Shown here: piece after piece, positions 23 through 12,306 of the stretch
Layout of the letters: the number at the start of each line of letters is the position of its first letter
How positions within the stretch are numbered: the first letter of the stretch is position 1
From: Nitrososphaeraceae archaeon
Lineage (GTDB): Archaea; Thermoproteota; Nitrososphaeria; Nitrososphaerales; Nitrososphaeraceae
Assembly: GCA_009377575.1 (NCBI GenBank)
Contig: WHTU01000008.1
Coordinates: 1 to 64,000 of the forward strand
Reading direction: 5' to 3'
Length of the DNA: 64,000 bases
Notes under the pieces: generated by a model
The model's database searches: none
What the model saw: only the letters and a program-made list of their open reading frames with translations
What the model was told of the DNA's origin: nothing
Made by a program: the position numbers and the translations under genes

Positions 23-655
23 TTGCATCAGTACTGTACTCCCTTAACTTCCCTTTCATTCGTAGCTGATGCCTGGTGTCCTGATGACTATCATAGGAGT
101 CCTGATGGAGATTGTGAAAGGGTTCCTTCAGTAGATGCTAGTGTCGATGAACGTTCTGAAGCAGACAATGGCAATGATGAGATTGGACAAATGAAGAATA
201 TAATGACAAAGTTGAAGCTAATAGTCCTTCTCGTAGTGGTGGAATTCAGATCATTCAAGCCAGTAAATGCAAAGGTTAGGCTGATTGTTTCAGAGGTACG
301 GTTACCGAGATAGTTGACGGTGATACAATTGACGTCAACAATGTGCGTATCTGTCTTTCACTGGTAAACACGCCAGAAAGAGGGGAAGCTGGATATAATG
401 ATGCTATCGAAACTACAGAATCTGTATGTCAGGTGGGAAGCCCTGCATTAGTGGATGAAGACGATGGTCAAAAAGAGGGAAGTTACGATAGATTAATAGG
501 AGTAATTTATTCTAATGGTAGCCCGACGTCTTTAAACCAAATACTGGAATAAGCTATTTCCCAATCGATATTACCATTAGATCTGCTAGGAGCATTTAAT
601 CCTCCCGAGGTCATTTCTTACCACTCTTCTCCTTTAATTCATGCACGAATTTCTC
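23..655 (+). pseudogene. Secreted thermonuclease-like (SNase-fold) gene, frameshifted
   Basis: The reading is split. Positions 23-313 encode an N-terminal part with a CPDDYHRSPDGDC segment, a start typical of exported thaumarchaeal proteins. From 280 a second frame encodes the SNase core: VDGDTID, then LVNTPERGE, then a YDRLIGVIY segment matching the end of the staphylococcal nuclease active site. A TAG at 277 and the frame change separate the two parts. A TAA at about 550 ends the core, but the same frame stays readable to 655. By alignment to staphylococcal nuclease (family knowledge), the Arg35 position is Cys here and Asp40 is Asn, while Glu43 and Arg87 equivalents remain. The intact family cleaves nucleic acid outside the cell. 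This copy looks dead. The true 5' end may lie outside the window. Confidence 0.7.
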
Positions 656-719
656 TCTGATGTTTGTGGATAGGCATTCCAATCTGGATACTTATTTACA
701 ATATATTGTACTTTGGAAT

Positions 720-878
720 CTAATATAGTAATAGAGGAAGCAAGAGTGAAATAGGACAGTAATCACATATCATGTCCTTCTCTACCAGTTTACGTTGTAC
801 TGCAGGAATAACGTCACGCTGCCAATCTATTTTTTCTATATATAGACAATTGGCTTGATCACTATTATTATATGTCAT
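720..878 (-). CDS. Small hypothetical protein downstream of the primase/helicase, probably frameshifted
   Basis: An ATG at 878 opens a 52-codon frame 15 bases after the stop of the primase/helicase gene. A GGGAG ribosome-binding-like sequence lies about 7 bases upstream. The product begins MTYNNSDQ and contains a CDYC pair. Its last residues (LLLPLLLY) look out of character. After a frame change near 735-745, protein-like reading continues to a TAA at 634-636 (VQYIVNKYPDWNAY). The original gene was therefore probably about 80 codons long. No family is recognised. It is likely co-transcribed with the primase operon. Confidence 0.4.
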   Translation of the reverse strand: MTYNNSDQANCLYIEKIDWQRDVIPAVQRKLVEKDMICDYCPISLLLPLLLY

Positions 879-893
879 ATGTATTCTCCCAGC

Positions 894-3644
894 TTATTGA
901 TGTAAATTAAGGTAGGAATCGTAAGAATCGTAAGAATCCTCAGATTGAGCGTGATTGTTGTAGCCCATAACAGACGATATTTTATTTTCTTCTGATAATA
1001 TATGGTCCGCAGATCTATTATCGTCAGATATTCTTGGCTTGTTTTGAGCATAATTTTGAATCTCTGATGAATCAGATGATTCTGACGATTGTTTACTGAT
1101 TCTTAATCCACCTAGCCCAGTTTTTGTATTAATTGTGAACTTTTCGATTGTGATCCCAATCTCTCGCAGGTTTGTTCTTACCTCGTTGATCCTTCGAGTT
1201 AAAATATTTGGACGTTTTGGCCACAGTTTAGTCTTTGTATTTATCCTCAGCTGCGTTGCGGCAATCGTTTCAAGCTCTGCCAGTAGTTCGGTTGCAGTTC
1301 CTTCCCATTCTCCGGTTCTTAATTCAATAAGTTTGATAATGGAAGTTGCAACAGGGCTGGCTTCCAATGCTTCCTCGGTTTGCAATCTCATATTTGAGCA
1401 GTAGACATTGAGAAACTCATTTTCCTTGTAATCCATACATCTAGATATTATCTCAGATACCTCTTCGAAATCAGCCATTCTCGATCTACTTTCTAACCTA
1501 ATTCCTCCATCGTTCTTAACTCGCAGAACCTTTGTTAGTATATCGAAGATATAACCCAGTAGCTGTGGCTTTATCTTCTCAAACTCGATCCAGATATCTT
1601 CGACCTTCCGGTATTTTTCTTTAGGTATACGTTCTAACTGTATTATGATCCCTCTATCCAAAAGATCAGCTTTGGTAGCTCCTAGATTTATCCCGTTAAA
1701 ACCTATACCTCGTTTAAAGTTATAGATAATATCTTCATCCGAGGTGTAAAGCTCCCTCTTGGAAAAGCCACTTCCAGTAACAGCTCGGCACAACTGATCT
1801 GATATCCATTCCTTTATGTAGGAAACATTGTCAAAATATGCAACATAATTGTGTTCAAGTTGCTGGACTAATTCATTGATATCTCGAGGAAAGGTTAGAG
1901 TTCTTATAATACTTGGGTCAACAAGCATCTTGATCAATTCTTGCAAGGTAGATTTTGCGCTTCCCTGTTCGCCATGCAGCATTAGGATGGGTTTAGGGAT
2001 ACCTGGAATGAATAAAGATATTATGTAGCATTTAAGGAGCAGCTTTGTATCTTGATCATGTAAGTTAACTAAATCCAAGAATCTATTGAATATGTCATTC
2101 GGATATTCGCGAACTGGATATACTTGCGATTGGAGATTACTATATCTTTTAAACATTATAGGCATTGATTCTGAACTCTCGATAGACCATCCATCGTCTG
2201 CAGTAATCCTTATGATTTCCCATTTCTTGTTTGCAAGATCATAATAGAATTCCTGGTTTAGATTGTTATTCTTCATATCAGTATTATCACCGTTACTTAT
2301 ACGTAGGTTCAATATCCTCGTAATTCCGCTGAAGGTGGCTTGTGCCTTGAGGATATTCAGAATACTTCCTATACTTTCTCCGGTTAGAACCGAATCGCCA
2401 TTTTGTGATTCATAATAAAGCTTGCAAATCCAATTCCTGAATCTGTTACTCTCCATTGGAAGTACCTCGATATGTTGATTTATACCAACAGCTGCGAATG
2501 GTCGATTATATTGATCGACAAAGAATTCCGAACACTTTTGCTGAACTAATGCAAGCGCTCTGGATGCTGCAGACCAATTTGAATCTTCAATACCGTCATA
2601 ATGCATAACGGAAGATTTGTCTTTACCATTTTTCTTTCTCACAAAATCTACTGCACAATCCCACTGTCGATCAAATTCTTTTTTATCTAGGGGTGGCTTA
2701 CATATCTGTAAATTTCTTTTCCAGGTTAGCTCTCTAATTTGATCTAATGAAAGAATGCCTTTATTTCTAAAGATGAGTGATTCGGCAATTCTTAATACTG
2801 CTTCATGTCTATTATTACCTTCAGTTATTTCAAAATCTTGTTTGAAAAGGTCTTGTATCGGTGTTAAAGCTTTGCCATTTCCATTATTGATGTCTAAGTA
2901 CTGAAGGCCATACTTCTTGCTTATATCATCAAAATGTTGTTCAAGTTCAGAGGTCTGTTTTTCTGTAAGTGTTGCTGGTTCATAAGTTGCCAATATAGTA
3001 TAGGGGAATCCGTTCTTGTGCATAGATGGAGCACAATAAATGATTCCATGTTCCCCTAGACTCTTGATCTCAAAAGCAGGAATCTGGTTATTTCTCATTT
3101 TTCTTGTATCAATACGAGAGATATCACTAGCCTTACCTAACAGTGGTCTTGGACAATATATGTAAAAGTGCATCTTGTCAGGACTGTCACTATGTTGTTC
3201 TACTATGGTTCTTGTTGCGAATTTCTCTGGTGAGATTGTTTTCTCACTTCTTGAAAGTATCTCATGTATTGCCTTGAAATTATCTGCATCAACTCCGACA
3301 AGATAATATCCTTCTTTATCTTTTCTATGCCATACCTTTCCTAGGATTACAGCAAGTCCATTACAGAACAGTCCTTCAGACTTCCATTGATCATGTAGCT
3401 TAATTGGTATCGGATCATTTTGAAAACTTTTCCACGGTATGATAGGTTTCTTGTGTAATGTATCAGCAGGTATGACATTAACGCCAATATGATATCTCCA
3501 ATAGTCTGCCCCTGCATTGTAAAATTCTATCTTTTCTTCATGAGAAAGAAACACACCCATCTTTTTCTGCCTTGCCGTGTAAATTAGTAGCGTATCTAAA
3601 TATCTGCTTGGGGTGTCACCACTATCAGAAACAGAAGATATCAT
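894..3644 (-). CDS. Primase-polymerase / helicase fusion of a mobile element
   Basis: A 916-residue replication protein. The N-terminal part resembles archaeo-eukaryotic primase-polymerase domains: motif I DAD (D119, D121), an HFYIY segment near H159, and motif III with E192 and a CAPSMHKNG stretch (H209), like the Prim-Pol consensus. The C-terminal part has a P-loop GEQGSAKST (558-566), an acidic Walker B-like VAYFDNV (D605) and a DLLDRG arginine (about 664), as in D5-like or SF3-like plasmid and viral helicases. Known relatives start and drive replication of archaeal plasmids and viruses. The gene is the last large gene of a minus-strand operon whose members overlap by ATGA junctions. With the recombinase at 5186-6430, it points to an integrated replicon. 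The exact helicase superfamily is uncertain. Confidence 0.85.
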   Translation of the reverse strand: MISSVSDSGDTPSRYLDTLLIYTARQKKMGVFLSHEEKIEFYNAGADYWRYHIGVNVIPADTLHKKPIIPWKSFQNDPIPIKLHDQWKSEGLFCNGLAVILGKVWHRKDKEGYYLVGVDADNFKAIHEILSRSEKTISPEKFATRTIVEQHSDSPDKMHFYIYCPRPLLGKASDISRIDTRKMRNNQIPAFEIKSLGEHGIIYCAPSMHKNGFPYTILATYEPATLTEKQTSELEQHFDDISKKYGLQYLDINNGNGKALTPIQDLFKQDFEITEGNNRHEAVLRIAESLIFRNKGILSLDQIRELTWKRNLQICKPPLDKKEFDRQWDCAVDFVRKKNGKDKSSVMHYDGIEDSNWSAASRALALVQQKCSEFFVDQYNRPFAAVGINQHIEVLPMESNRFRNWICKLYYESQNGDSVLTGESIGSILNILKAQATFSGITRILNLRISNGDNTDMKNNNLNQEFYYDLANKKWEIIRITADDGWSIESSESMPIMFKRYSNLQSQVYPVREYPNDIFNRFLDLVNLHDQDTKLLLKCYIISLFIPGIPKPILMLHGEQGSAKSTLQELIKMLVDPSIIRTLTFPRDINELVQQLEHNYVAYFDNVSYIKEWISDQLCRAVTGSGFSKRELYTSDEDIIYNFKRGIGFNGINLGATKADLLDRGIIIQLERIPKEKYRKVEDIWIEFEKIKPQLLGYIFDILTKVLRVKNDGGIRLESRSRMADFEEVSEIISRCMDYKENEFLNVYCSNMRLQTEEALEASPVATSIIKLIELRTGEWEGTATELLAELETIAATQLRINTKTKLWPKRPNILTRRINEVRTNLREIGITIEKFTINTKTGLGGLRISKQSSESSDSSEIQNYAQNKPRISDDNRSADHILSEENKISSVMGYNNHAQSEDSYDSYDSYLNLHQ

Positions 3645-3886
3645 TCGAACGTCACCTCGTCATCTCTAGCTTCTGATTGATCGCAAGCTATCCCATACCA
3701 ACATAGATCGGAGGCACAGGTGCTACTGTAAAGGCCACTATTGATCTGCCGCAATACCATAAGCCTTTTAGTAGCTACATTGATACAGTTAGGACATTCA
3801 CAGGTTAGGTTTTGTTTATGGTACGCGGCCTTAGGATCGAAAACCTTATTTTTCGTTGTGTCGTTAATTGTATCGCTGTAGATCAT
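3641..3886 (-). CDS. Small Cys-rich protein of the element
   Basis: An 81-residue protein with a CECPNC cluster near residue 30 and further cysteines (STCASDLC, GIAC), a pattern suited to binding one zinc ion. Its stop overlaps the start of the primase/helicase by an ATGA, and its own start overlaps the stop of the gene before it in the same way, so translational coupling is likely. No family is recognised. Small zinc-binding proteins beside replication genes in archaeal plasmids are often DNA-binding or accessory replication factors. That role is only inference here. Confidence 0.6.
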   Translation of the reverse strand: MIYSDTINDTTKNKVFDPKAAYHKQNLTCECPNCINVATKRLMVLRQINSGLYSSTCASDLCWYGIACDQSEARDDEVTFE

Positions 3887-4107
3887 CCGCTTGGGTCGTC
3901 ACCTGAGTCTTGATTTACTTCAAAATGAGGTGCTAGTTCAGTCTTGTACCCGTCTAAACTAGCACCATGTCCTTGTTTTTTATGACAATGACATAAACAA
4001 TTAAAATTAAACCCTAGCCCTTGCCATCTCCCCGCACAACTATAATGCTTCCCTAACTTACAATTTCTATTTTCAAATTCCAGCGAGGTCAAAGTTAGCT
4101 CGTTCAA
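3883..4107 (-). CDS. Small Cys/His-rich protein of the element
   Basis: A 74-residue protein starting with TTG immediately after the TAA of the ribbon-helix-helix gene, so the start is supported by tight operon packing. It contains C-x6-C followed by NCLCHCHKK, a Cys/His cluster able to bind metal. The C-terminal third is acidic and polar. Family unknown. It sits between a DNA-binding regulator and another Cys-rich protein in a four- or five-gene operon. Confidence 0.55.
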   Translation of the reverse strand: MNELTLTSLEFENRNCKLGKHYSCAGRWQGLGFNFNCLCHCHKKQGHGASLDGYKTELAPHFEVNQDSGDDPSG

Positions 4108-4266
4108 TTAAGATGGAACGACCTCCTCAACTTCATCTTGAACATTTTTATCCAGCTCCGAAAATATGCGCAAAATGACATCGCTGTAGGTTTCACCAAA
4201 TTTTCCAGCAATCTTGACTTTCTGGAATGCCTCCTGATTTAGCGTAATAGTATGCCGAGTATGCAT
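4108..4266 (-). CDS. Ribbon-helix-helix (antitoxin-like) regulator, 52 aa
   Basis: A short gene read from an ATG at 4266 to a TAA at 4108. The product starts MHTRHTITLNQEAFQKVK and continues GKFGETYSDVILRI. An initial beta strand followed by two helices with a Gly-x-Ser/Thr-Tyr-Ser-Asp turn is the layout of small archaeal RHH proteins of the VapB/DUF7557 type. Such proteins bind operator DNA as dimers and often repress their own operon. Here it is the first gene of the minus-strand replication operon and faces the gene at 4315 across a 48-bp spacer, so it may control both. No PIN or RelE toxin follows it. Confidence 0.65.
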   Translation of the reverse strand: MHTRHTITLNQEAFQKVKIAGKFGETYSDVILRIFSELDKNVQDEVEEVVPS

Positions 4267-4314
4267 ATAATAGGATGAATAAACATAAAATTAGAATAAT
4301 GTTTTTGTCTTATA
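4267..4314. promoter_or_regulatory. Divergent promoter spacer of the element
   Basis: Only 48 very AT-rich bases separate the start of the minus-strand RHH operon from the plus-strand gene at 4315. Both promoters must lie within this spacer or its edges, so an operator bound by the RHH protein could affect both directions. This is inferred from layout. I did not identify a clear palindrome. Confidence 0.35.
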
Positions 4315-5142
4315 ATGGTCAATGAGGACAAAAACGTTAAAATATTTCCTCAACCTGAACGTGACGAAATAGAATCAATACTTATAAAAATAGTAAGAGA
4401 GATGCAACGATCTCTGGACAATTTACCAGATCCTAAAGAATACTCATCTATCATTTTAAAGGAAGCTAGATCTAATATAACTCTGGCAACCGTCTTGTTA
4501 TTATCGCTATCTTTTGGTCTAGGACCAAAAGATAAGTTAGATCCTAAAGAATTTAGAAAAAGATTTGGACAAGAATCTAGTTTTGAGCCATATCAAATAA
4601 CAGCTGCTTTTGATAGAGCAAAAAAGGAGGGTGCATATACTGAGGTAGAAAGACACAAAAAAATTAGACACCCTGGACGACCTAAATCTTCTGACAATAT
4701 GTCAAATAATAGAGGAAGTGGTCGTCCAGCGCGAACCTTTCAAGTATCTAAAGGATTAGTGAAACTAAGGAAAATTATATCCATAGAAGATGCAAATAAA
4801 CTAATACACGATCGGTTAAATCAAGAAGGAATATTACAAGAATACTATAAATTCCTTATTTTGACATTCTATTACGCGCTGAGAAAGGAGGGTTCCTCAG
4901 AAGGGATATTATTTAAGGGAATAAAAACAGCATTCCCAAATTATATGAAAAATGTCATGGGATATAATGAAAAGATAGACATTAATCCCTCAAGTTGGAA
5001 GTCCTTAGTAAATGATGTATTCTTGAGATATGATGAAAAACATTTCGAATCTCTTGTTGCGCCAAGATTAGCAAACTTCCTCACTGAAAATCAATTAGAC
5101 TATCATTCTTTTTTTCTTAAAATATTGCCAAAGCTACAGTGA
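4315..5142 (+). CDS. Putative DNA-binding protein with AT-hook-like linker
   Basis: A 275-residue protein of unknown family. The N-terminal ~110 residues are helical and charged. A central basic linker (about 115-145) carries two GRP cores, HPGRPKSS and GSGRPARTF, that resemble AT-hook minor-groove binding motifs. The C-terminal part is again helical (VKLRKIISIEDANKLI, then RNAs of lysine-rich helices to the end). It is transcribed away from the replication operon and toward the recombinase, and is followed by a T-run. A role in replication or partition of the element is a guess from context. The start is ATG close to the divergent promoter. Confidence 0.55.
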   Translation: MVNEDKNVKIFPQPERDEIESILIKIVREMQRSLDNLPDPKEYSSIILKEARSNITLATVLLLSLSFGLGPKDKLDPKEFRKRFGQESSFEPYQITAAFDRAKKEGAYTEVERHKKIRHPGRPKSSDNMSNNRGSGRPARTFQVSKGLVKLRKIISIEDANKLIHDRLNQEGILQEYYKFLILTFYYALRKEGSSEGILFKGIKTAFPNYMKNVMGYNEKIDINPSSWKSLVNDVFLRYDEKHFESLVAPRLANFLTENQLDYHSFFLKILPKLQ

Positions 5143-5155
5143 AGGTAAAACCAAG

Positions 5156-5162
5156 TTTTTTT
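5156..5162 (+). terminator. T-run terminator after the gene at 4315
   Basis: Seven consecutive T residues follow the stop codon by about 14 bases. Archaeal transcription commonly ends at oligo-T stretches in the non-template strand. The site also separates this gene from the convergent recombinase gene. Confidence 0.4.
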
Positions 5163-5185
5163 CAATTAAAAACCGCTCACTGCAG

Positions 5186-6430
5186 CTATGTACTATTTAA
5201 AGATTTTGGTTTTAGCTGCCCTGAATCGATAAGTGATTGAATTAGTTGTTCAAATTGTTCCTGCTTACGCACCATATTTTGAATCATTTTATCCTTCTCT
5301 TCAAGCTGTGATATGATATCTGCACCTTTTCTTTCTAGCTCCCCATAATCAAGAAAGGTTAGATATGGTTCTATTTTTTTAAAAATCTCTATTTTTTCTT
5401 TTTCACTCTTTCTATAATAGGTGGATCCTGAATGACCGATAAAGAAATTGGCATAATCCGAATAACCAAGATCAGAAATGGTGGAATAAACATATCTGCG
5501 AAAAGAATGGAGGGTGATCCTCCTATGTTGAGCTCCAACCGATTCCTCTCTTTGTCCTCTCCCCATGCGATCTAATGTGTTACCAAAGATGGAAGCTAGT
5601 TCAACATACATAGATCGAATAGAAACAGAAAGATAGCCTTGAGATGAAGCGTTCATTGAGAAAACTAAATCGTTATCTATTTTTGGTGGCGTTCTGTATT
5701 CAGAAGTCGACTTGCCAGCTTTCTTATCATAAAACGACACTCTTCTTTTACGAAATTTATATTCCAACCAGTTCCTAAGTTGCTTGGCTATTTCTTGCGT
5801 AAGTAGAACAGTACGATCTGATCTAGTTTTTGTGTATTCTCCTCTCACGTATAACTTAGGCGGAATCGAATCTAAATCCAAATCACAGATTCGCACTGAG
5901 ATTACTTCTGAAGCTCTCATTCCTGTTGCAGCTAGCAACATTACATATGTTTTGAGCCGAACATTTGAACAAGTATTAAGAATATCTGTTACATCACTTT
6001 TACTTAGTGCTTTCTTTTCTTTTTGAACAGCTCTTGGGAGCTTAACCTTAAACTTGAACTTTCTTACACTAACTTCAATATCGCAATATTCAAAAAAGTT
6101 CTTTGCAGTTACTACACGCTGTTTGATAGTGATTGGAGCGATAGTTCCTGTTAGATAAGCAGCATATGATGATAGTACGTCGTAAGGATTCAAATTCGTT
6201 TCCTTATTCTGGTTATCATAGTTGAGAATCTTGTGAATAAGATTATCTATATTACATTGATAGGTCTTGTACACAAATTTAGCAAAATCATGCAATCTAT
6301 TCTTGTATTCTTGTGCGGTTGAATTACTCATTGATTTTACATTATTAATATATTTGATCGCTAGTTGACTACTCATCATACTTCTTTTTCGATCAGCAAT
6401 GTCATTTGTACGCTTAACTAGTTGCAACAC
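5186..6430 (-). CDS. Tyrosine recombinase / integrase
   Basis: A 414-residue site-specific recombinase. An N-terminal core-binding (SAM-like) region at about 20-120 is followed by the catalytic domain. It shows R172 in ATGMRASEV, a lysine in YTKTRSDR (about 201), the HxxR box LHSFRR (H308, R311), H333 in IGHSGS, and the Tyr pair at 338-339 in STYYRK, one of which should be the nucleophile. A C-terminal coiled-coil-like helix (about 370-400) follows. The family inserts and excises DNA at short identical sites. Lying at one end of the replication module, it is probably the element's integrase. I could not identify the attachment sites or a tRNA target. Confidence 0.9.
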   Translation of the reverse strand: MLQLVKRTNDIADRKRSMMSSQLAIKYINNVKSMSNSTAQEYKNRLHDFAKFVYKTYQCNIDNLIHKILNYDNQNKETNLNPYDVLSSYAAYLTGTIAPITIKQRVVTAKNFFEYCDIEVSVRKFKFKVKLPRAVQKEKKALSKSDVTDILNTCSNVRLKTYVMLLAATGMRASEVISVRICDLDLDSIPPKLYVRGEYTKTRSDRTVLLTQEIAKQLRNWLEYKFRKRRVSFYDKKAGKSTSEYRTPPKIDNDLVFSMNASSQGYLSVSIRSMYVELASIFGNTLDRMGRGQREESVGAQHRRITLHSFRRYVYSTISDLGYSDYANFFIGHSGSTYYRKSEKEKIEIFKKIEPYLTFLDYGELERKGADIISQLEEKDKMIQNMVRKQEQFEQLIQSLIDSGQLKPKSLNST

Positions 6431-6662
6431 AGGTAGATAGAAACCTTAAACTTATAACTATTGCGTATTTATAAAGGTCTATGCTTGATAAACTAAGCAA
6501 TTGTTATAATATTTATAGATAAGTTAATTTACCCAGAATCTAATCATAGGTAGAACTTTGAGATTTATAAGGCCCTAATACTTGTTCTACTCCATCTCGG
6601 CAATCTTAAAATGGTATTCACCTTGCGAGCAGTGGTTTTCGAGAGTTACTATATTCGAAATT

Positions 6663-6713
6663 GGTATCAAATCAGGTTAACCCAGGTATCAAATCAGGTA
6701 AACCCAGGTATCA
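6663..6713. repeat. 22-bp tandem direct repeat, 2.3 copies
   Basis: Copies at 6663-6684 and 6685-6706 begin GGTATCAAATCAGGT and differ at one position (T or A). A 7-base start of a third copy follows at 6707. The array is about 230 bases upstream of the recombinase gene start. Iteron-like or operator arrays of this length are common near plasmid origins and integrase control regions. Its function here is not shown. Confidence 0.7.
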
Positions 6714-6778
6714 TTAAAGATGTAGAATGGATGTCATGCTTAAAACTGCGATATGGGGCTTTGAATAAGATAGGATAA

Positions 6779-6976
6779 TCATATCAGGTTCCTCATATCT
6801 CTGCTTATTTCTGCTTTTGGCATCATATATGAGACTAATTTGTCTGTTAAATGCACTGGCAAGGGGAAGGCTATTATCCGCTTCAGAATACTCTTCCTGC
6901 CTTGAATCTCAAAGAAATTCAGACGGCCGTCAGTCCTGCTAGTAATTGAGCCGTCAAATGTCCCGACTGATAACAT
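6779..6976 (-). CDS. Doubtful small ORF
   Basis: A 65-codon frame with a plausible amino-acid mix (SVGTFDGSI near the start, LVSYMMPKAE near the end) but no recognised family and no clear ribosome-binding site. It could be the remnant of a larger gene, since it lies between an element edge and a broken ABM gene. Little else can be said. Confidence 0.2.
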   Translation of the reverse strand: MLSVGTFDGSITSRTDGRLNFFEIQGRKSILKRIIAFPLPVHLTDKLVSYMMPKAEISRDMRNLI

Positions 6977-7109
6977 GATGAGAAGATCTGATAGGAAGTT
7001 CTGGACGGGAGGACACTAAGTCGTGATGATCATTTGCTGCATTGAGAATCCTCACTCCTGCACAAATGAGTTACCAAATACTGAAATATTATTGCCTGGA
7101 AAATAGGAT

Positions 7110-7479
7110 ATGGTAAAAATTATTGAAATGGACGATAAGGTATCACTCAATGAACCGTTTAAAGATGACGTTGGGGCAGTGATTCTAATGAACAAGTTCA
7201 ATGTGAGCTCTGACGAGGTCAAAGAATTTCTAGAGGTATTTGCCGAGACGACTAAATTCTTTAAGCAACAACCCGGATTTATCTCAGCTCAAGTTGCACT
7301 TAGGAATTGCTGGGAGTTCCACATTCATTAATTATGTAGTATAGGAGTCTGTAGCACACTTCAAACAGGCATTTAGCAGGCCTGAGTTTCGATCAAACAT
7401 GGCCAAGCTACTTCCCAACACTGTTATGTCTTCTCACCTGTTCAAAAAAGTTGCAGTCCCTGGGATTTGTGTGGATTAG
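7110..7479 (+). pseudogene. ABM-domain (antibiotic biosynthesis monooxygenase-like) gene, broken
   Basis: The first frame (from ATG 7110) reads VGAVILMNKFNVSS and FFKQQPGFISAQ, typical of the small ferredoxin-like ABM fold. Near 7295 the frame breaks. The correct continuation is in another frame (GIAGSSTFINYVV, then HFKQAFSRPEF), interrupted once by TAG at 7343-7345 and ending at TAG 7477-7479 with LFKKVAVPGI. A complete product would be about 123 residues. Family members are cofactor-free oxygenases or heme-associated proteins, and their substrates are hard to predict. One frameshift plus one stop suggests real decay rather than a single sequencing error. Confidence 0.7.
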
Positions 7480-8391
7480 TTATTGTGACCGTTCTGATCC
7501 ACTCCGATCCAACTTTGAAGGTATAAGTCTACAGCTCTCCCATAGTCGTGCTGATAATGACAAGGAGGCAAATCAACTGAAGTAGAACAAACTTGACCGT
7601 TCTATCTAGTCTTATTATCTGCAACCACGTCCGATGTCTGAAAATTAGGTCCAGGTAGCAATTTGAACCGGAACCTCTCAGATTATTTCTTCCTAACTCT
7701 ATAGTTACTTTGAATCTAATTCGCATATTCGAATTTTTTACAGTTAAAAATGGTTAGCACCTGAAATATAGGAGGAGGATGCTAGATGACGTCTACACTG
7801 TGTAGGGTGGAACCAATCTGGCCACATATGGAAACGTAGCTGACATAGAACTAAGAAACTAATAGTATGCTTTATTATCGCGTAGTACATATCTCTCTAA
7901 GACTCATATTCATAGCTATCCATGTTATTAGAGTATGAGGAATCAAACTGTTTGTCTCCAGATTCCCTTAAGCATATCATTTTTCGGGCGATATATTCAA
8001 AGACAATATATGCGCCAGAGGGATTGACCCATACACATGTCTTGCTCATTCAGCTGTAATATGACTTCGAAAATTCTTGGTATTGAGTTTGCGGTTGTTT
8101 CCATGTTCTAGGAGTCGACAGCTACACTTCTCGATCCGGGGGGGGGGGAATAACTGTTTCTTATTTAGGTATTAACTGATTGCGAAACGTGCAAGCACAT
8201 CGTATAAAGGATATAGGTCAAAACAATCTACGAGGGGTGTGTTGAATATGCTCTCGAGAATACACTCACTGAGAATGCAGTAAATCACCAAACTCAAAAG
8301 ATCAAGCTCCAAGTAAGAGGACTATTTTTAGGTCACAGTTTGTGAATTAATATAAAAAATAATCTGAGCTCTTAATGACTTATAACAGGGA
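7480..8391. other. Long spacer without a convincing gene
   Basis: About 900 bases with no supported gene. It contains a strong GGAGGAGG sequence at 7771-7778 placed correctly for an ATG at 7786, but that frame ends after 17 codons (tag at 7837-7839). It also holds a run of 11 G residues and an AT-rich TATA-like stretch near 8347-8360 that may serve the HtrA gene. A 65-codon minus frame at 7529-7726 has no protein-like features. Confidence 0.5.
8138..8148. repeat. G11 homopolymer
   Basis: Eleven consecutive G residues in an otherwise AT-rich spacer. Such runs are unusual in this base composition. They may be slippage-prone or reflect an assembly artefact. No gene depends on it visibly. Confidence 0.8.
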
Positions 8392-9606
8392 ATGTCCCCT
8401 AATTTATGGACTGAGATGCTGATCATGAGAAAGTATTATGGCATCCATATTTCTTTGATAATCGTTCTGCTGATATTTGTTTTTTGCATCCAAGAGATGT
8501 CATTTGCTTCTGTGCAAGAAAACATTACGTCAAATTCTCCGCAAACGCTGTTTGATGAACTAAAGCATTCGACTGTGAGCGTAATGAACACAATACCTAC
8601 AAATCTGTTTAATCCCCAGATACAAAACCTGACTGAATTAGGTACAGGTTTCATTTTTGGTGACACGGTACACGTTATCACTGCTTATCACTTGTTGTCA
8701 GGAGCCAGAAACGTTGATGTAATATCGAGCGAAGGAGATAGGTACCCAGCGACGTTGCTGGGAGCAGACCCATTTAGCGACGTCGCGATTTTGGAAGTGA
8801 ATTCAACTACTCCAATTCAAAAAAGGATAACTACAACTTCTCCGATGCAAAGCCATTTGACGACTTTAAACGAATCCCTTAAACCAGTAAGAGTGGGTAA
8901 TTCGAGCGCATTGCGTGTAGGGGATCCCGTTGTAACTATCGGCTACAATTTTGGTTCGACTGGTCCCTCTATGACGGGGGGACTGGTAAGTAAGACCGAC
9001 TATGTATTAGCATTTCCTGCAGGCGGATTCTCTATACCTAACATAATACAATCTGACGTAACGGTGAATCCTGGCAATTCTGGAGGACCGTTGGTAGACA
9101 TGTCTGGGAGAGTTGTTGGAATGATTTATGGTAGGCTGAACCCAGTGGGCGTGCCGCTGGGACAATTCCCTGGAATTACGGCGGTTATTCCTTTCAATAT
9201 AGTCAATCGAATCGCTTCATCAATTGTTGAAGAAGGGTATTATTTACACCCAGGTATCGGCATCGTTGGAGAAACGCTCACTCCAGACCTGATTCAACGA
9301 ATGATCAACTTTACGAATATACCACCTGGTCTCTATGGAGTATTTATAAGTAAATTACAGAGGGGTGGGACTGCGGATTTAGCAGGCTTGCAGGGGAGTG
9401 ATACAAACGAATATGGGGAGATACTTGGTGGAGACGTAATAACTGCCATCGATGGAATTTCTGTAGATAAATTTGAAGAACTATTAGCATATATCCAAGA
9501 ACACAAATCAGTAGGGGACAATATTTCCTTCACTGTGCTTCGTAGTGGCCAAATCTTGGAAAGACACGGGGTAGTTCAGACATTTCTTCCTTCTACAGCA
9601 AGATAA
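8392..9606 (+). CDS. HtrA/DegP-like exported serine protease with PDZ domain
   Basis: A 404-residue protein. A hydrophobic export segment at about 18-40 (preceded by MRKYYG) is followed by a trypsin-like domain: H100 in ITAYHLL, D130 in DPFSDVAIL and S230 in NPGNSGGPLVD form the expected triad. A PDZ-like domain occupies about 290-395 (GGTADLAGLQG, GGDVITAIDG). HtrA proteases degrade or refold damaged envelope proteins outside the membrane. The start at 8392 sits a suitable distance from a TATA-like AATATAAAAAAT for a short or absent leader. The ATG at 8425 (MRKYY) is an alternative. It is monocistronic. Confidence 0.9.
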   Translation: MSPNLWTEMLIMRKYYGIHISLIIVLLIFVFCIQEMSFASVQENITSNSPQTLFDELKHSTVSVMNTIPTNLFNPQIQNLTELGTGFIFGDTVHVITAYHLLSGARNVDVISSEGDRYPATLLGADPFSDVAILEVNSTTPIQKRITTTSPMQSHLTTLNESLKPVRVGNSSALRVGDPVVTIGYNFGSTGPSMTGGLVSKTDYVLAFPAGGFSIPNIIQSDVTVNPGNSGGPLVDMSGRVVGMIYGRLNPVGVPLGQFPGITAVIPFNIVNRIASSIVEEGYYLHPGIGIVGETLTPDLIQRMINFTNIPPGLYGVFISKLQRGGTADLAGLQGSDTNEYGEILGGDVITAIDGISVDKFEELLAYIQEHKSVGDNISFTVLRSGQILERHGVVQTFLPSTAR

Positions 9607-10258
9607 TTCGACATGTCTGTCTTTGTCACTTTGGAATGGTTATGGTCGCAAATGTACTGAACGCGAACGTCCACGCGGATTCGTCAGTTAGCACCGCTGA
9701 GCTGCCTGAATATCTAGGTGTATGAGTCATGAAATTGTAGATAAATGGGAATCCCTAACCGAGATGAATTATATTATATGCGACAATGAAACTTTAAGAC
9801 GTGTTAAATATTCCTCTCTTGATTTCTTTGAATTGAGGAAACGTCTGCTGGGAAAAGAACTCTTCTTCATTGTCGTGATAAAATTTACCGAGATATTATG
9901 ATTTGAATTGAAGTGTAGTTTTGGAAATCTAGTACCAATAATTGCCTAGTCTGTTCTGACAAGTGTTATGGAACAAATCACGAATATCGGTAGCAATCGT
10001 TTATCTCTATCGTCCGAATCTGAAAGTGCTCAGAGAATATGCTTTCTACTTAGTTTAGTGTCCCTGTTTTCTTTACAGTAATGGATATCCAGTTCAAGGT
10101 CCAATGTCAATTTGTTACCTACTTTGTACCCACTCATTAAATTTGAAGATTGGACACCATTAAATCAAAAGTAGACACAAGATCAATATTCCTCATATAG
10201 GGGAGCATTTTTCTCAAAACAAAAACTTATTGGTCAGTATTAATGACTGTCAGCGTGA
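9607..10258. other. Spacer between htrA-like gene and moeA
   Basis: About 650 bases with no supported gene. A 29-codon frame from 9637 (MVMVANVLNANVHADS) is too short to call. An AT-rich stretch around 10195-10250 could hold the moeA promoter. Confidence 0.45.
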
Positions 10259-11557
10259 ATGGATACTATCCAGAGATCTAAGAAAAGCCATCGGAATTTC
10301 ATCTCGGTGGAAAGCGCTCATGACAGGCTTTTTTCATCGATCAACAAACCAAATACTAATAAAAAGAAAACAGAATATCTATATTTAATTGAGTCTAACG
10401 GACGGGTACTGGCCGAAAACTTACATTCTGGTACGGATGTTCCTCCGTTCGATAGATCCGATAGGGATGGTTTTGCAATATTCTCATCTGATACAGGTAA
10501 TGCGTCATATCAATCTCCAATTTATCTCAAGATAATTGGAAAAGGCCTCGCAGGACAACAGGCAACGTTGCAGCACCTAAGAAAGGGGCAAGCACTTGAG
10601 ATTGCCACTGGAGCCAAACTTCCCAAAGGTGCTGATTCTGTTATTATGTTTGAAGATACTACCTCAGAGGATAACAGGCTAGTCAAGATTTCCAAACCTG
10701 TTAATCGGGGTGATCATATATCTCGCAAAGGTAGTGACGTTAGAAAAAAACAATTAGTATTAAAAAAGGGAACGTGGCTTACTTCACAAGATGTAGCCTT
10801 GATTGCTTCCATGGGTCTTGACAAGATCTCCGTGGTCAAAAAGCCTAAGGTGGGTATACTAGCAACTGGTGACGAACTTACAGAGCCTGGGTGCCGACCT
10901 TTAAATGATGCAAGTATTTTTGAAAGCAATAGATACATGTTGTGTTGTTTGGTACGGGACGCTGGTGGACAAGCTGTAGATTTGGGGTTGTGTAAAGATG
11001 ATCCAGACGCAATTTTTGAAATACTAAAGTCAGCACTGAACCTCGATATGATTGTTGTATCCGGTGGGGCGTCAGTAGGTGAAAAGGATTATACACCTTT
11101 GCTCATAGACCGGCTGGGAAAACCAGGACTCGTAGTTCATGGAATAGCTATGAAACCGGGATCCCCGACCGGACTTGGAATTGTGAGAAATACACCAATT
11201 ATAATATGTCCTGGTTTTCCAGTTTCTGCCTTTGCCGCTTTTTCTATGTTCGGGGTACCACTTTTGTTCAGATTATTAGGTACGCAAGGACCTGTTAGAT
11301 CAATCCTAAAAGCGGAGATGACTGAAAATATAAGTGTTCACAAGGATTTTCTAACACTCGTGCGAGTGTTAGTGTATCGCCAGAATGATGTTTTCCTAGC
11401 CAGGCCAGTTAGTGCCAGTGATCCAAGCTTGATTTCAACGCTGACAAACTCAAACGGGATAGTAATCGTAAATGGACGGATCACCCGTAGTAATGAGTTA
11501 AAAAAAGGTGATATTGTGGAAGTTACTTTATTTAAGAACATCCAGGAAATCATTTGA
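10259..11557 (+). CDS. moeA: Molybdopterin molybdotransferase MoeA
   Basis: A 432-residue protein of usual MoeA length. Near residue 60 it has VPPFDRSDRDGFA, the MoeA substrate-loop consensus (usually PxFDxSxMDG). GDHISRKGSDV lies at about 150 and LATGDEL at about 200. The MogA-like nucleotide/molybdopterin fold shows SGGASVGEKDYTP near 270 and MKPGSPTGLG near 300. MoeA inserts molybdate into adenylylated molybdopterin, the last general step of Moco synthesis in the cytoplasm. The other Moco genes follow 750 bases downstream on the same strand. Confidence 0.93.
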   Translation: MDTIQRSKKSHRNFISVESAHDRLFSSINKPNTNKKKTEYLYLIESNGRVLAENLHSGTDVPPFDRSDRDGFAIFSSDTGNASYQSPIYLKIIGKGLAGQQATLQHLRKGQALEIATGAKLPKGADSVIMFEDTTSEDNRLVKISKPVNRGDHISRKGSDVRKKQLVLKKGTWLTSQDVALIASMGLDKISVVKKPKVGILATGDELTEPGCRPLNDASIFESNRYMLCCLVRDAGGQAVDLGLCKDDPDAIFEILKSALNLDMIVVSGGASVGEKDYTPLLIDRLGKPGLVVHGIAMKPGSPTGLGIVRNTPIIICPGFPVSAFAAFSMFGVPLLFRLLGTQGPVRSILKAEMTENISVHKDFLTLVRVLVYRQNDVFLARPVSASDPSLISTLTNSNGIVIVNGRITRSNELKKGDIVEVTLFKNIQEII

Positions 11558-12306
11558 CTGTTCTATAGTGGGGGAGGATGAATAATAGAAGATCCTAGCA
11601 AGTGGTGGTAGGTTGTTTAGGTAAAGTTATGACTTTGTAGATTAAAGTATCTCGCTATGGACCATGTGATATAAGATGTTTTCGTATTCAGTACCATTTA
11701 TAGGACAGAACAGTTACGAAAGTTGACGTTGCCTTATGATGCGATGTTCTTGGAAGAGATTCGAGACCGCGACCAATTGTATTGTTGCTCGCCCTCGAAG
11801 ATGAAGAACCTTTGACAAATTGAGAGGTGGCCTACACCCATATTCAATTTGAAAAATGTACGGGAAGATAGACTGATTGGTAAGCTTTTGCACTAATGAT
11901 TTTGCTTAAAATCATGAGTTGCAATTAGAAGCACGGTTATTGATTACGCCTTGATGTGAAGTGATTAAAACTGGCAATTCAAAAACAGGACAACAAGTTT
12001 CAGCACTTTTTTTTCATTTTAATTTCTTCGGTCCTATTCATAATGGGTGTAAAGTACAAGCCAGTGAGTTTTTTAAGTCATGTTCTAGGAATCACAAAAA
12101 AAGCTTAGATATCCGAATTCAGGAATCAGGAGAGTCTCTTCATAGATTGGTTCCCAATAAGCTGCTGTTGCGCGAATCTAAAATCGACAATCAAAAAAAA
12201 TTCTCAAAACCGACAGATACAACCAATTGGATTATAAGTATTACGGTTATTAATTAGATAGATCTAATTTGAGATACATGACTTGGACAGGAGTTGAAAT
12301 TTAGTT
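11558..12306. other. Spacer between moeA and moaD
   Basis: About 750 bases. The only long frame is 11961-12257 (98 codons, GTG start). Its product has an irregular composition and no motif, so I do not call it. A segment of a degraded gene is possible. Confidence 0.4.

Follow-up and report, generated by a model that had tools for sequence, protein, structure and literature searches.

A probable small plasmid-like element integrated in a Nitrososphaeraceae-type archaeon, with a recurring integrase-associated frame and exchanged replication modules

Cryptic integrated elements of Thaumarchaeota (Krupovic et al. 2019, PMC6563490) carry an integrase and a replication protein, whereas genes for a capsid or for conjugation are absent. 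As described there, the class includes fusions of primase-polymerase (Prim-Pol) and helicase, MCM and ribbon-helix-helix (RHH) genes, it is stated to have no discernible signature genes, and attachment sites are given for 68 of 74 elements. The minimal replicon of plasmid pRN1, as described in two papers (PMC3869888, PMC4234260), is an operon of an RHH repressor and the ORF904 Prim-Pol/helicase, with a stem-loop of about 100 nt downstream. As for integration, all archaeal integrases characterized so far act in both directions with no need of a directionality factor, according to a 2021 review (PMC8371274), which also reports one pair of modulating cofactors. Here we describe a locus at the left end of contig WHTU01000008.1 (C369; 93,133 bp), in assembly GCA_009377575.1 of a Nitrososphaeraceae archaeon, a genome made of 380 contigs. 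The stretch analyzed, called the window below, comprises bases 1-64,000 of that contig. Six open reading frames (ORFs) at 894-6430 probably belong to a small plasmid-like element of about 6.0-6.5 kb, integrated in the chromosome of a Nitrososphaeraceae-type archaeon. On this reading it counts among the cryptic integrated elements of Thaumarchaeota and functions as an integrated plasmid of the pRN1 type.

Four genes of the minus strand form a compact operon directed toward the left edge of the element: an RHH protein of 52 aa, VapB/CopG-like and a putative repressor (4108-4266), two Cys-rich proteins of 74 aa (C74, 3883-4107) and 81 aa (C81, 3641-3886), and a replication protein of 916 aa (894-3644). 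Successive genes overlap by 0, 4 and 4 bp. A region of 48 bp (4267-4314), probably a divergent promoter and likely to contain the RHH operator, separates the operon from the plus-strand gene of a 275-aa accessory protein (4315-5142). The latter lies tail to tail, at a distance of 43 bp, with the gene of a 414-aa tyrosine integrase (5186-6430, minus strand). Between these convergent genes, an imperfect inverted repeat (5137-5223; arms 5137-5161 and 5199-5223) may act as a terminator. The ORF list thus places the six genes as the original prediction had described them, and its statements that the minus-strand operon is tight and that its two small products are Cys-rich are borne out. The absence of capsid and conjugation genes, also claimed there, agrees with our scan: capsid, terminase, casposase and conjugation genes had no credible match among the six proteins, DNA to the left of window base 1 lying outside the scan. 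A match of the integrase to a PHROGs head-and-packaging family (E 0.042) was regarded as chance. No defence family was matched by the element proteins, and neither tRNA genes nor Rfam families were detected in the window.

The element is foreign to this chromosome. The protease and MoeA genes of its right flank are found side by side in each of the four other genomes from this genus (DNA search with window bases 6431-12000). The upstream side can be read in G003, G004 and G001, where a gene for a 125-aa protein is found and no element; the contig of G002 stops before that side, hence three of the four genomes are informative. Readable upstream sequence amounts to 641 bp in G003, and was obtained in G001 via two contigs sharing 141 identical bases. 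Had every relative carried these genes at this site, they would have been marked as chromosomal; this is not what is seen. The base composition of 553-6496 (GC content 0.362) lies below that of all 103 same-size windows in the rest of the window (0.378-0.407). The Prim-Pol protein has a patchy distribution (26 of 101 genomes searched), and close relatives of the 275-aa protein were found in 3 of 71 genomes, this one included. Integrase matches are present in 48 of 101 genomes, with 17 in this genome (G000) alone. Some of these 17 (L081, L082) adjoin ordinary genes without a replication module, which suggests amplification and decay of the integrase family.

The identity of the replication protein as a Prim-Pol/helicase is well founded. 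Its Prim-Pol domain matches PF09250 above the curated cut-off (E 6.4e-5, residues 54-226), a PHROGs DNA primase family is also matched (E 5.2e-9), and an AAA-type helicase half spans residues 358-844 approximately. When the window protein was aligned with ten homologues at full length, residues D119, D121, H159, E192, S207 and H209 of the Prim-Pol domain, as well as Walker A (GEQGSAKST) and Walker B (FDN), were invariant or nearly so in the 11 proteins. Most Prim-Pol homologues carry a Cys/His (zinc-finger-like) C-terminal segment, which is absent from the window protein, L059 and L066. The helicase half matches 28 plasmid records and two phage records (tblastn). Among the plasmids, pH6Ac, a free circle, is the top match (E 2e-54, residues 358-844), with 29% identity to its large protein over 507 columns; in that protein the helicase is fused to a weak Prim-Pol match (5.5e-4, under the cut-off). 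The helicase of Streptomyces plasmid pFP11 is related over residues 466-844, and a separate Prim-Pol gene (7e-39) lies just upstream of it. A profile of the 11 homologues placed pRN1 ORF904 at the top among solved structures, with E-values of 0.0034 and 0.011. In IMG/VR, distant helicase relatives of the protein were found in four contigs and no relative of the integrase was found. The structure model of the replication protein is unreliable (mean predicted local distance difference test score, pLDDT, 38.5).

The tyrosine recombinase announced by the original prediction is likewise supported, by matches to PF00589 (E 5.7e-13), phrog_1 (9.8e-21) and XerA_Arch (5.5e-24). In an alignment of 10 integrases, no substitution occurs at K201, H308, R311, H333 or Y338, and eight of the proteins have R172; these six we take to be the catalytic residues of a tyrosine integrase, and they are intact in the window protein. 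The ORF of 414 aa is uninterrupted, so that the split integrase gene of an SSV-type suicidal element is not seen.

The last 43 residues of the integrase (5189-5317, minus strand) behave as a module, common to integrases with very different bodies. Compared with L071, identity is 49% in the body and extends to 34 of 40 positions in the tail; in L089, L090, L092, L093, L095 and L098, bodies are 51-57% identical and only 5-10 of about 40 tail residues are shared. A search with a 52-residue tail query gave 18 places in 61 genomes.

Gene order is also recurrent; a search for it elsewhere was one of the checks named by the original prediction. Nine of 11 full-length Prim-Pols lie in the order Prim-Pol, small genes, opposite-strand gene, integrase (the window, L059, L060, L061, L062, L064, L065, L067 and L097), L060 with no small gene of at least 60 aa listed between Prim-Pol and opposite-strand gene. 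The other two are L063, where no integrase was found in 18 kb, and L066, where the order is different. The integrase label is firm in six of the nine loci: in L060 and L061 it depends on PHROGs matches of E 0.013-0.014, in L062 on 24% identity to L060, and comparison of profiles gave no support for a relationship of these three to the window family. The same three have a tRNA gene beside the integrase start (3 of 16 loci scanned).

We then asked what accompanies the integrase tail. Profiles of RHH and C74 were built from the window, L071 and L068, which were excluded from the counts; loci were counted if they offered at least 1.2 kb 3' of the integrase, and L088 and L183 had too little sequence. 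Controls were 15 deduplicated integrases with other tails, after omission of duplicates (L025, L027, L028, L029, L031) and of loci with too little room (L091, L093, L096). An RHH gene lies beside nine of 14 tail-bearing integrases (L172, L173, L175, L176, L177, L178, L180, L182 and L184, all with E 1.7e-13 or better) and beside one of 15 controls (L032, 9.2e-8). C74 accompanies eight of the 14 (the same set minus L176) and none of the controls at E up to 0.001; weak matches (0.0072-0.094) exist elsewhere in three control loci. Over the aligned part, identity to the body of the window integrase is 17-36% for the RHH-bearing integrases outside the training loci and 42-60% for the controls. L038, the same locus as L184, was first a control on account of its body, and was moved to the tail group after the result had been seen (tail, RHH and C74 are present). 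Given this reassignment, and since the loci are related by descent, the Fisher values of 0.0017 (RHH) and 0.0007 (C74), as well as that of the uncorrected first test (8/12 versus 2/21, 0.0012), are guides rather than probabilities. Taken together, the integrase tail, the 275-aa family, RHH and C74 form a frame whose parts recur together on divergent integrase bodies. In two loci with a related body and another tail, L095 (integrase at 2366-3562) and L090 (3564-4820), an AbrB-like gene stands in place of RHH; the AbrB-like profile was built from L095, L090 and L067, so that it matches there by construction, and no further control was matched.

The replication module downstream of this frame is exchanged between elements. 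A Prim-Pol/AAA protein of the window type lies downstream of C74 in the window and downstream of RHH in L176 (broken, 42% identical). In L071 (G000:C322), the corresponding place is taken by an unassigned protein of 646 aa, and in L068 by a second Prim-Pol with a DUF5906-like helicase, frame-broken, a relative of which occurs in L095 with its other tail and AbrB-like gene. Locus L177 (G008:C2, 3132-6725) encodes a 1197-aa fusion of a second-type Prim-Pol-like N-terminus with an MCM helicase and lid (PF00493, 1.1e-22), while in L173 the operon continues after RHH and C74 with a gene for a RadA/Rad51 recombinase (G001:C764, 6290-7258; PF08423, 2.8e-65). The module proteins of L172, L178, L180, L182 and L184 have no assigned family. 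Between window-type and second-type Prim-Pols, blastp gave no match at E 0.1.

The opposite-strand genes of these loci are related as well. Distant homologues of the 275-aa protein occupy the same position in six sister loci, and phmmer among ten opposite-strand sequences, with E-values that hold for that small set, linked the window to L177 (1.6e-7) and L172 (1.3e-5), L071 to L172 (1.7e-40), L184 to L172 (1e-15) and L068 to L184 (2.7e-10); the genes of L057 and L175 were unconnected. The proposal that the 275-aa product is an AT-hook protein is partly sustained: two GRP motifs are there, and the L177 protein has the same double motif, but no Pfam family is matched at E up to 1. Its structure model is unreliable (mean pLDDT 39.5). 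C81 had no family match in Pfam or PHROGs. C74 carries a motif that reads roughly Cx4Hx2Cx3WxGhGx4CxCxCH, and adjoins RHH in 11 loci, window included; in all 11 loci with both, the two genes overlap or lie within 2 bp, although the longer overlaps hinge on which start codon is chosen.

A working model may be drawn from these features. The integrase, to judge from its family, would excise and integrate a circle, and the Prim-Pol/helicase would prime and unwind this circle and recruit the host polymerase. By analogy with the repressor role proposed for the RHH protein of pRN1, the RHH protein would bind the 48-bp divergent promoter and hold the replication operon low. More speculatively, RHH and/or the Cys-rich protein C74 might control the recombinase through its C-terminal tail, one switch thus serving replication and excision. 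The element would move passively, as capsid or transfer genes are not seen in its six proteins. A bolder version, which we put forward tentatively and regard as having the lesser chance of being right, is that tail, RHH and C74 constitute a transferable control cassette: RHH and/or C74 would dock on the tail and choose between integration and excision, RHH also controlling the replication operon. As such a cassette would address only the tail, many integrase bodies and any replication module could be used, which would explain the swapping. If true, archaea would have here a system of recombination directionality that is tied to copy control. One may ask instead whether RHH and one Cys-rich protein are a toxin-antitoxin pair, with a VapB-like antitoxin, that maintains the element and has no part in a replication/recombination switch. 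VAPB_antitox is indeed the best Pfam family of RHH, here and in sister loci (7.6e-5 and 1.7e-4 in the latter), and the overlapping or abutting genes would suit such a pair. C74, however, has no toxin-family match and resembles a metal-binding knuckle, and the RHH/C74 pair tracks the integrase tail, a linkage for which a toxin-antitoxin pair acting on its own would have no need. We thus consider this explanation improbable.

Where the element ends was examined by comparison with relatives. On the left, window bases 263-540 are 79% identical to an intact gene of G001 (contig C738) for a thermonuclease-like protein of 239 aa. The homology stops at 540-546, about 30 codons short of the gene end, and the window copy is frameshifted; the left end thus lies at about 541-560, where the nuclease pseudogene breaks off. 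On the right, G001:C177, which encodes an integrase 82% identical to that of the window, stays homologous as far as 6496; the last 31 bases (6466-6496, plus strand) are identical and may represent the integrase promoter and/or the element end. This 31-bp sequence is single-copy in the element genome and in G001. It was rejected as an attachment site: G000 and G001 each have a single copy of its 18-bp core, and five further genomes lack it. Chromosomal homology to G003 begins at 7013 (60 bp; none of 300 shuffles was as good). The intervening zone, 6497-7012, must contain the right junction and is hardly alignable to relatives, with 34 and 134 of 300 shuffles as good for G003 and G004, respectively, and a marginal alignment to G001 (3 of 300). 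A right end at 6713, as first proposed, is thus unsupported. Two tandem units of 22 bp, identical at 21 positions, lie at 6663-6706, between integrase and chromosome. The best candidate for a pair of attachment repeats, 536-551 and 7073-7088 (15 of 16 bp), was dropped because its right copy lies within a promoter conserved in element-free relatives and because the 60 bp to the left of that copy still align to G003.

Sister loci were also inspected. In G023, homology to six relatives begins at or near the 3' end of a tRNA-Lys gene beside the integrase, and the left end of that element was not found within 26 kb; in G038 the same tRNA has an insert of 6.5 kb, which turned out to consist of other genes. 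No tRNA-end repeat was found in L060, L061, L062 or L143. An empty site for G000:C322 was not obtained, its flanks being multi-copy.

Several observations weigh against the reading given here. The attachment repeats that the original prediction had proposed to look for were not found, either by repeat search or by comparison with relatives. The contig ends 893 bp to the left of the Prim-Pol gene, and the 125-aa gene expected as left neighbour sits on another contig, C88, joined to other genes, so that either the locus has been rearranged or the contig is chimeric. Both flanking genes are frameshifted, the small gene on the right (7110-7331) encoding 73 aa compared with 178 aa in G004, and decay or sequence errors may be behind this. 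No stem-loop origin like that of pRN1 was detected 3' of the Prim-Pol gene, as 546-893 (minus strand) folds no better than shuffles (z 0.02). The RHH assignment is favored by homologues at the same gene position in 11 other loci, but its family matches are under curated cut-offs (VAPB_antitox 0.002 in Pfam; NCBIfam NF010249 6.1e-6). Finally, five of the 14 tail-bearing loci (L057, L174, L171, L179, L181) have no RHH gene; three of these (L171, L179, L181) contain broken or fragmentary integrases. L179 and L181 were entered as negatives because wrong ORFs had been picked for them in the computed test.

Some of these observations would fit a larger element or island extending beyond the contig end, with the six genes as its right end and the nuclease as cargo. 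The start of the contig at window base 1 and the displaced 125-aa neighbour speak for it, and pH6Ac, whose replication protein is related, also has a thermonuclease-family gene. The frameshifted nuclease gene is, however, cut at its 3' side where the element begins, as expected of an old target and not of cargo, and sister loci keep the same compact gene order; a larger element therefore seems unlikely to us. A larger insertion spanning C88 was set aside; beyond the 125-aa gene, that contig has ordinary-looking chromosomal genes, judged from their translations. Independently of this, the pH6Ac gene (L123, NC_016637; 9045-9725) may resemble the left flank by chance. The lack of an attachment repeat, the frameshifts on both sides and the broken integrases and Prim-Pols of several sisters would alternatively suit a dead remnant, integrated once and decaying, that has lost excision. 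The six element genes are nevertheless all uninterrupted, their starts and stops overlap and the catalytic residues are preserved; we would grant this possibility a minor share, slightly above that of the island. A small integrated plasmid or cryptic element of a thaumarchaeon, as originally predicted, is still the best reading, in view of the element-free relatives, the patchy Prim-Pol and the recurring gene order. Its description as a self-contained, minimal unit of about 6 kb is likely and unproven, as no attachment repeat was found and the contig starts at base 1, 893 bp left of the Prim-Pol gene, with a truncated nuclease gene as left border.

The remaining features of the locus belong to its edges. 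The left flank (23-552, plus strand) is the pseudogene mentioned above, 3'-truncated and secreted by prediction, and the left end of the element (541-893), 3' of the Prim-Pol gene, is mostly non-coding and, by analogy with pRN1, a candidate origin region. A 52-aa ORF at 720-878 (minus strand) is of uncertain reality. The right chromosomal flank (7013-12000, plus strand) is made of genes conserved in relatives: the short frameshifted gene from 7110 onward, an HtrA-like protease (8392-9606) and MoeA (10259-11557).

The frame provides a signature for part of the thaumarchaeal cryptic integrated elements, and its combination with unrelated, swapped replication modules illustrates how elements of this sort are put together. 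The link between tail, RHH and C74 makes the control of an archaeal integrase amenable to testing. In addition, soil ammonia oxidizers are in great need of genetic tools (PMC6563490), and the element is a candidate small natural replicon for them.

Among known systems, pH6Ac of Methanothrix harundinacea is similar in having the helicase half fused to a weak Prim-Pol match and in possessing an RHH gene; it differs in being a free circle of 11,991 bp with no annotated integrase, another gene order and a replication protein of 1124 aa. The Streptomyces plasmid pFP11 (NC_006911) has a related helicase beside a Prim-Pol gene, but these are two separate genes on a bacterial, mobilizable plasmid of 35 kb. 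In the pRN1 family of Sulfolobus, as in the element, an RHH gene precedes a large Prim-Pol/helicase gene within a single operon, and the size is similar; among solved structures, ORF904 comes nearest to the Prim-Pol domain, through a weak match limited to that domain. pRN1-type plasmids also have a less conserved third gene, orf80. Unlike the element, pRN1 is a free plasmid without the integrase frame; the window has two Cys-rich genes between RHH and Prim-Pol, and no stem-loop origin was found downstream of Prim-Pol here. A provirus is a poor comparison, as the six proteins have no credible PHROGs capsid or packaging match. The closest likeness is to the cryptic integrated elements, which also present an integrase in a foreign insert of a thaumarchaeal chromosome and a replication protein, with no capsid or conjugation genes among the six proteins here. 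No attachment repeat was found, however, in contrast with the 68 of 74 elements for which sites are given in PMC6563490, and the four-part signature with exchangeable replication modules differs from the class as published there. A description of the frame was not found among the open-licence papers listed by our searches, the supplementary element list of PMC6563490 lying outside the comparison. The kind of element is thus already known, and what is new is a recurring frame on which replication modules are exchanged.

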